64,000 bases of DNA from Sulfurospirillum sp. UBA12182 (GTDB taxonomy: Bacteria; Campylobacterota; Campylobacteria; Campylobacterales; Sulfurospirillaceae), in contig DLUF01000042.1 in the NCBI GenBank assembly GCA_002742765.1, forward strand, positions 1 through 64,000. Direction: 5' to 3'. The position numbers were made by a program, and so were the translations under genes. Numbering within the stretch: position 1 is the first letter of the stretch; every line of letters starts with the position of its first letter. Under the pieces are notes generated by a model. That model was not told where the DNA came from and did no database searches. It saw only the letters and a list, made by a program, of their open reading frames with translations. Below, one piece after another: positions 44,587 to 47,448 of the stretch.

Positions 44587-45081
44587 TTATTTGCTTATTT
44601 TAATGACTGGGCGCTGCATAAAAAGGTTATTTGGATAGATGATAACAGAGCCATTTTCATCTTTTATTTGGATATGAAAAAGGGCAATTTCGATGATTTT
44701 CCCCTCCACTGAATTGTCTCCATCTAAGATTTTTATATGGTCTCCAACCCGTGATGGAAAAGAAAAAAAGATAATTACACTAGAAGTAAGATTACTTAAA
44801 ATTGACCACTGAGCAAAAAGAGCTACTCCGATAATGGCAAATATAGAAGATGCAAAAACAAGTAATCCATCTAAGCTAACACTCCAAATAAAAGCTAAAA
44901 AAGCAATTGCAATAACAACAATCAAAAGGTTGATACTCTTTGAGATATAAAAAATTCTTTTTTGAGTAACCTCTTTTGATTTTCCTATTTTGTTTAAAAA
45001 ACGCTTTGAGATTCGTAAAGCGATAAAAGTCACCACAACAAGAACGATACTTAAAACTATATTTTTATCTAAAAACTCCAT
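44587..45081 (-). CDS. Small mechanosensitive ion channel (MscS family)
   Basis: FAQWSILSNLTSSVIIFFSFPSRVGDHIKI, MscS pore-beta signature. Confidence 0.88.
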   Translation of the reverse strand: MEFLDKNIVLSIVLVVVTFIALRISKRFLNKIGKSKEVTQKRIFYISKSINLLIVVIAIAFLAFIWSVSLDGLLVFASSIFAIIGVALFAQWSILSNLTSSVIIFFSFPSRVGDHIKILDGDNSVEGKIIEIALFHIQIKDENGSVIIYPNNLFMQRPVIKISK

Positions 45082-45089
45082 CTTATCTC

Positions 45090-46145
45090 CTACTCCGTAA
45101 TCTCTTCTTCAAACAGCTTTGACAACTCACTATCACTAAGAACTTGTTCATGAAAATACTCAAGACTATTTTCTGCTTTTTCAAGGTTTTTGAATTTAGC
45201 GATATGAAACACAGCATCTCCCTCTTGTGCTAGGGGGATTTCTGATTTTCCTATGATAATGCCATCAAAAGGTGCTGTTAACTCATATGTACTGTCTCCA
45301 TTTGGATCATCTATATAAGCAATTACTTCTGATTTTTTTACAGTATCTCCTAATGACTTGACAGTTCTTATAACACCACTTTCAATCGAACGCACCCAGA
45401 AGCTGTTTTTGGTTACGATGGGAGTTCTTTTAGATTTTTTCTTAACCTTAGGGAGCATTTCTAACTCTCTTAAAACATTGATTATCCCTTTAACACCTAT
45501 TTTGATACTCTTTTCATCAAAACGCAAAGCTTCACCTGCTTCATACAACAGTGTTGGTATGCCTAAAGAATCACACAATGCACGCAATGAACCTTCCCTT
45601 AAAGGGGAGTGTACTATAACGGGGGCTTCAAAAACTTTTGCCATGCCTAGAGTATATTCATTTTCTGCGTTTATACGTATTTGAGGTAAATTTGATTTAT
45701 GTATAGAAGCTGTATGCAAATCAATCCCAAAATCACACCTTGCAACTATCTCATCAAAAAAAATCTTTGCTACTCTGCTTGCTAAAGAACCCCTTGTACT
45801 TCCTGGAAAACAGCGATTCAAATCTCGTCTATCAGGAAGATATCGAGAAAGATTCATCACCCCATAAACATTAACAATCGGAACTAAGATAAGAGTTCCT
45901 CTAAGGTGGTTAAGAATTTTAAGTTTTCTAATCCTACGAATAATCTCTATGCCATTGAGTTCATCCCCATGCAAACCTGCACTCACAAAAAAGATAGGAC
46001 CATCTTTTTTCCCTCGTATGACACGAATTGGTAGTTTCGTAGGAGTGTTATAAAGGCTTGGTAAATCAACATTTATAGCAATGTTACTATTTTTACTGAT
46101 TTCATTAGTGCCTATGATTATCTTTTTATGAGCCATTTTACGCAC
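45090..46145 (-). CDS. Succinylglutamate desuccinylase/aspartoacylase family protein
   Basis: SAGLHGDELNGIEIIRRI; DLHTASIHKSNLPQIRIN. Confidence 0.88.
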   Translation of the reverse strand: MRKMAHKKIIIGTNEISKNSNIAINVDLPSLYNTPTKLPIRVIRGKKDGPIFFVSAGLHGDELNGIEIIRRIRKLKILNHLRGTLILVPIVNVYGVMNLSRYLPDRRDLNRCFPGSTRGSLASRVAKIFFDEIVARCDFGIDLHTASIHKSNLPQIRINAENEYTLGMAKVFEAPVIVHSPLREGSLRALCDSLGIPTLLYEAGEALRFDEKSIKIGVKGIINVLRELEMLPKVKKKSKRTPIVTKNSFWVRSIESGVIRTVKSLGDTVKKSEVIAYIDDPNGDSTYELTAPFDGIIIGKSEIPLAQEGDAVFHIAKFKNLEKAENSLEYFHEQVLSDSELSKLFEEEITE

Positions 46146-47064
46146 CTATGTTATCTTTTTTTCTTTTTGGCTTTTTCTTAGGCTCTTGTACATGTACATT
46201 TTGTGCGATATAATCCATAATCTTTCCAGCGATATCTATGCTAGTTGAAGTTTCTATCCCCTCAAGTCCAGGAGAAGAGTTTACTTCCATAACCAGTGGA
46301 CCACGAGCAGAAGGAATCATATCAACTCCACACACTCCTAACCCCATAGCTTTAGCTGCTGCTAATGCTGTTGCTTTTTCTTTGCGATTTAGAGTATAAG
46401 CTTGTGCGGTTCCACCTTGATGTAAGTTAGAACGAAAATCACCCTCAGCACCTTGTCTTTTCATAGCACCAACCACTTCTCCACCTACGATAAATGCTCT
46501 GATATCAGAACCTCCAGCCTCTTCTATAAACTCTTGAACAAGAAGATTTACCTCCATCCCATAAAAGGCATCAAGAACGGATTTTGCTGCTTTCTCACTC
46601 TCAACTAAAACAACTCCAACACCTTGAGTTCCTTCTAAAATCTTCAAAACCAAAGGTGTACCACCACTTAGGGCAATCACATCTTTAGCACTTGAGAGAT
46701 TTGAAGCAAAAACAGTTTTTGGCAAATCCACACCTTTTCTTGAGAGTATCTGCAAACTTCTTAACTTATCTCTGCTGCGTTTGATAGCCAAACTCCCAGA
46801 AACACTAAAAACGTCCATCATCTCAAAGTGTCTTACCATTGCCGTTCCATAAAAAGTCCTACTCGCTCCAATGCGGGGGATAATCGCATCTGGTTTTGGT
46901 AACTCTTCTCCTAAATAGTTGATTTTTAACTCATTTTTCATAATCTCTATACTACACTTCAAAAAATCAATTACTCTTACTTCCCAACCTCTTAGGGTTG
47001 CTGCCTCAACCAATCTTTTTGTTGAGTAAAGTGTCTCGTCTCTTGACAATATATATACTCTCAT
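46138..47064 (-). CDS. rimK: RimK family ATP-grasp ligase
   Basis: PLVLKILEGTQGVGVVLVES; VMEVNSSPGLEGIE. Confidence 0.92.
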   Translation of the reverse strand: MRVYILSRDETLYSTKRLVEAATLRGWEVRVIDFLKCSIEIMKNELKINYLGEELPKPDAIIPRIGASRTFYGTAMVRHFEMMDVFSVSGSLAIKRSRDKLRSLQILSRKGVDLPKTVFASNLSSAKDVIALSGGTPLVLKILEGTQGVGVVLVESEKAAKSVLDAFYGMEVNLLVQEFIEEAGGSDIRAFIVGGEVVGAMKRQGAEGDFRSNLHQGGTAQAYTLNRKEKATALAAAKAMGLGVCGVDMIPSARGPLVMEVNSSPGLEGIETSTSIDIAGKIMDYIAQNVHVQEPKKKPKRKKDNIGA

Positions 47065-47188
47065 CTTTTGCCTTTTATAAATTATAAGGTTGATTATATC
47101 ACTATTTCATATAAAAGATTACGCTATTTTAAACACATTTTTAAACAAAAAAAACTATCATTTCAAAGAACAAATGCAAAGGAGTGTT

Positions 47189-47419
47189 ATGCAAGTCAAT
47201 ATAATTTACTGTAATCAGTGAAGTTATAGACCAAGAGCTTTCCGTGTGGAAGATGAGATAAGAATGGCCTATGAAAACGCTGATGTCATCGCGTTACCTA
47301 GTTTTGGTGGTATCTTTGATGTTGAAGTTGATGGAAAGGTTATCTTTTCCAAAAAAGAGACAAACAGATTTCCAAATCCTGGTGAAATTGTTGATTTATT
47401 AAAACAGGCTGGATACTAA
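47189..47419 (+). CDS. Selenoprotein W-like (SelT/SelW/SelH, Rdx family) with in-frame UGA at 47219-47221
   Basis: MQVNIIYCNQ(U)SYRPRAFRVEDEIRMAYENADVIALPSFGGIFDVEVDGKVIFSKKETNRFPNPGEIVDLLKQAGY*; RBS GGAG at 47181; CxxU motif. Confidence 0.85.
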
Positions 47420-47448
47420 GAGAAAAGGCAAAAGCCTTCTCTCTTACT
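47420..47448. terminator. Hairpin between selW-like gene and SDR gene (convergent)
   Basis: GAGAAAAGGC-AAAA-GCCTTCTCTC imperfect stem-loop. Confidence 0.55.

Follow-up and report, generated by a model that had tools for sequence, protein, structure and literature searches.

A selW-like gene with an in-frame UGA selenocysteine codon and a covarying SECIS-type hairpin in Sulfurospirillum sp. UBA12182

A short reading frame on the forward strand of contig DLUF01000042.1 from Sulfurospirillum sp. UBA12182 is interrupted early by a TGA, which raises the question whether it is a broken gene or a gene in which UGA is decoded as selenocysteine (Sec). The frame lies at positions 47189-47419 of the window, meaning the whole stretch of 64,000 nucleotides that was analysed. 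It starts with an ATG at 47189, contains the in-frame TGA at 47219-47221 as codon 11, and ends with a TAA at 47417-47419. Translation with TGA as U gives a protein of 76 residues, in which the codons TGT AAT CAG TGA (47210-47221, +) encode a CNQU redox motif at residues 8-11, with Sec at residue 11. The start codon is preceded at a distance of 4 nucleotides by the Shine-Dalgarno sequence AAGGAG (47179-47184, +), and AAGGA-type sites are also found before most of the homologous genes. These elements agree with the original prediction of the start, ribosome binding site, UGA, stop and protein sequence, and the CxxU motif has the position expected for the Rdx family, as had been proposed. The gene was also said to be absent from the ORF track, and a standard ORF list indeed lacks it, since such programs end a frame at UGA.

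The family assignment is clear. The Pfam Rdx family (PF10262) matches residues 2-72 with profile positions 1-73 of 74 (70.4 bits, cut-off 22.6, E-value 1.5e-19), thus covering the whole protein with the UGA-encoded CxxU near the N-terminus. When the UGA is read through, the protein also matches the NCBIfam equivalog model NF041051, SelTWH_Campy (100.4 bits, cut-off 88, E-value 5e-29). Solved relatives identified by sequence are Atu0228 (PDB 2fa8, E 6e-10) and Selenoprotein W (PDB 2npb, E 2e-4), and by this homology the product is probably a thioredoxin-fold protein. The nearest named relative, Sulfurospirillum sp. UBA6810, has 79% protein identity, and comparison with it gives a dN/dS of approximately 0.21 over the 65 codons 3' of the UGA. 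These codons are thus under constraint as coding sequence, contrary to what termination at the UGA would lead one to expect. The two family scores and the dN/dS value place the gene far beyond chance.

Under the standard code, the frame contains one in-frame stop and could be taken for a pseudogene derived from a Cys-type Rdx gene in which the codon for the second active-site Cys has mutated to a stop. The purifying selection on the codons after the UGA speaks against this, and so does the distribution of the codon in related organisms. In a set of 250 genomes from the same order (Campylobacterales), an Rdx match exceeds the cut-off in 34; all 34 genes contain exactly one internal TGA and keep the UGA of the CxxU motif, and no Cys form was found among them. 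The selA gene is present in 33 of these 34 genomes and in 77 of the 216 others, counts that ignore shared ancestry. The one exception, G183, is considered below.

The prediction of a SelW-like gene implied that the organism has a Sec decoding system, and named the absence of selA, selB and tRNA-Sec as the sign of a pseudogene. A search for the named families in the genome of the organism itself (2.25 Mb, 98.8% complete) found all three, with selA at 438.8 bits, selB at 296 bits (cut-off 242) and one tRNA-Sec over the gathering score (56.4 bits, cut-off 47) to which ARAGORN assigns the anticodon TCA. selD is also present (358.5 bits, cut-off 125). The complete Sec machinery, together with the conserved UGA, the constraint behind it and the covarying hairpin described below, makes the pseudogene reading hardly credible, and the complete system and the two family scores bear out the identification of the gene as a SelW-like selenoprotein gene.

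Three more genes in the same genome have an in-frame UGA, namely selD (U16) and two fdhA genes for formate dehydrogenase (U189 and U241, codons of the listed frames). The selD gene, which sits after a TusA/DsrE-like gene that is probably yedF, also seems to have a tandem TGA-TGA at its end (L015:1486 onward, contig C90), in which case a single message would use UGA for Sec as well as for termination. This bears on another reading, in which the UGA of the selW-like gene is translated as some other amino acid, either by general readthrough or by reassignment to Trp or Cys. Nothing specific favours such a reading. The apparent use of UGA UGA as a normal stop in selD argues against it, as do the presence of SelA, SelB, SelD and a tRNA-Sec with anticodon UCA and the fact that the UGA falls in the CxxU motif and is accompanied by a SECIS-type hairpin. 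It can be set aside with about the same assurance as the pseudogene.

The search of the genome gave some further observations. An MntP-family gene for a putative manganese efflux pump lies between selA and selB (L010:673-1230, contig C12). Only about 70 nucleotides separate the matches for selA and selB in one relative (G204), so the MntP gene appears to be an insertion specific to the lineage. The genome of UBA12182 had no match to DUF466/Sel_put, a further selenoprotein family found in the same bacterial class.

Bacterial Sec insertion at a UGA involves a hairpin in the message, and a conserved one is found here at 47238-47252 (+), beginning 16 nucleotides after the UGA. It has the form CTTTC-CGTGT-GGAAG, with the stem at 47238-47242/47248-47252 and the loop at 47243-47247. 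The gene and its relatives make up 29 distinct sequences that align on the UGA without gaps, and every possible stem of 5 base pairs with a loop of 3-11 nucleotides was scored in the approximately 54 bases 3' of the UGA. The CTTTC/GGAAG stem with its 5-nucleotide loop has all five pairs in 29/29 sequences (145/145 cells), compared with 9 sequences for the next best stem. The loop G at 47244 (alignment column 26) is invariant. Formal counts on 19 sequences give 100% paired cells against 82% in shuffles. Substitutions affect both sides in four of the five pairs and in 16 cells, and the covariation is 0.620 against 0.216 in shuffles, none of the 500 being as high.

Constraint on the protein sequence does not account for this covariation. 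In the innermost stem pair, both partners are third codon positions (Phe/Ser/Ala/Leu/Thr on one side, Val/Ala/Leu on the other); C-G, T-A, A-T and G-C all occur there, so the bases vary while the pairing is kept. The same is seen in synonymous swaps: some relatives encode Ser-Arg-Val as TCC CGT GTG, others as TCT CGT GTA, and the bases pair in both cases. Moreover, a synonymous re-draw with the codon usage of the window would be expected to leave only about 4.8 of the 29 rows fully paired, compared with 29 observed; because the rows are related, the comparison does not amount to a formal P value. No SECIS family was matched when the window and a 171-base region were scanned with Rfam. By eye, hairpins of the same form also follow the UGA in selD (AGCTC-CGGGT-GAGCT) and in each of the two fdhA genes (L055 and L056; TCGCC-GGTGT-GGCGA) of the same genome.

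The original prediction had rightly placed a hairpin after the UGA but drew it as TTTCC-GTGT-GGAAG at 47239-47252, 17 nucleotides from the UGA and one base off the conserved register. This shifted form, or a bulged-U version of it modelled on E. coli fdhF, might act as the SECIS here, in this gene alone. It has the lower free energy when the single sequence is folded (-3.6 against -2.2 kcal/mol for the conserved register). However, it is complete in only 5 of the 29 sequences, and in the set of 19 it pairs 73.7% of the cells with a covariation of 0.173, hardly over shuffles. The hairpins of selD and both fdhA genes also fit, by eye, the register of 5 base pairs and 5 loop nucleotides. The shifted register and its bulged-U variant were rejected on the 29 sequences, and either would be a very improbable SECIS even for this gene alone.

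The anatomy of the gene speaks for the usual bacterial route of Sec insertion. Loaded with Sec-tRNA-Sec, SelB would bind the hairpin in its conserved register, and the ribosome would then insert selenocysteine at codon 11 instead of stopping. In the finished protein, Cys8-Asn-Gln-Sec11 is probably a selenenylsulfide/thiol-selenol redox centre, with redox activity suggested by membership of the family. We infer with a probability of roughly 97% that this is a functional, apparently stand-alone SelW-like selenoprotein gene, encoding a 76-residue redox protein in which Sec is inserted at the UGA by means of SelB and the hairpin.

The genome G183 belongs to the same taxonomic family and is 99% complete. 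Its SelW gene (L029) has the UGA and a fully paired hairpin, in which the stem CTCTG/CAGAG has bases changed on both sides with the pairing compensated. No selA was found in this genome, and no selB, selD or tRNA-Sec over the cut-offs. The DNA flanking its SelW gene matches the flanks in relatives, making contamination of that contig less likely. The genes may be missing through a gap in the assembly or because the Sec trait was lost recently. If G183 is truly complete, it would contain a freshly stranded selenoprotein gene or have another way of reading UGA. That SelW in the order is obligately a Sec protein is a rather doubtful generalization; it would draw on the lack of a Cys form among the homologues and on G183, which keeps the UGA and an intact, compensated hairpin with no Sec genes found.

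SelW-like proteins were among the listed bacterial selenoproteins already in 2006 (PMC1794560). Cravedi et al. 2015 (PMC4607533) found SelW in Epsilonproteobacteria and reported that, in particular, genome annotation had entirely overlooked the SelW genes; Sulfurospirillum is not mentioned in the main text of that paper. They also described a SECIS hairpin common to Fdh, SelD and SelW, with a stem of 5/6 base pairs a few nucleotides after the UGA and an invariant loop G. The hairpin reported here has the same stem, position and loop G, and no difference was found. In Campylobacter jejuni, SelW (transcript CJnc60) is likewise small, was at first unannotated and has its UGA read by tRNA-Sec, and its full-length translation was confirmed in 2025 by Ribo-seq and proteomics (PMC11955535). 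That protein, from another organism, has 80-81 amino acids compared with 76 here. The match to SelTWH_Campy, which represents the SelT/SelW/SelH family of Campylobacterota, is likewise full-length with the same CxxU, and the difference is ordinary sequence divergence only. Selenoprotein W (PDB 2npb) and Atu0228 (PDB 2fa8) belong to the same family by sequence, but in the alignment Atu0228 has Cys where the present gene has Sec.

The gene is thus a further member of a family known from this group of bacteria, without unusual features, and it leaves the knowledge of Campylobacterota selenoproteins unchanged. What it adds is the well-supported annotation of one gene that ORF callers overlook, and a SECIS hairpin that is placed in the right register and shows synonymous covariation.

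The gene apparently stands alone, with a divergent RimK-like gene upstream and a convergent short-chain dehydrogenase (SDR) gene downstream. On its strand, the upstream region yielded no sigma-70-like promoter. Between the convergent selW and SDR genes there is a terminator-like inverted repeat at 47417-47446, predicted to form a hairpin as part of a -15.2 kcal/mol fold; its T tail is weak, and a terminator scan found none. Two relatives keep part of the neighbours of selW without any constant partner, and synteny therefore gives no functional clue. The RimK-like ATP-grasp ligase gene overlaps a gene for an AstE/AspA-type deacylase (45090-47064, -), and the two might be a peptide-modification pair. 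A small ORF at 44587-45081, by eye similar to a mechanosensitive channel, adjoins these two genes.
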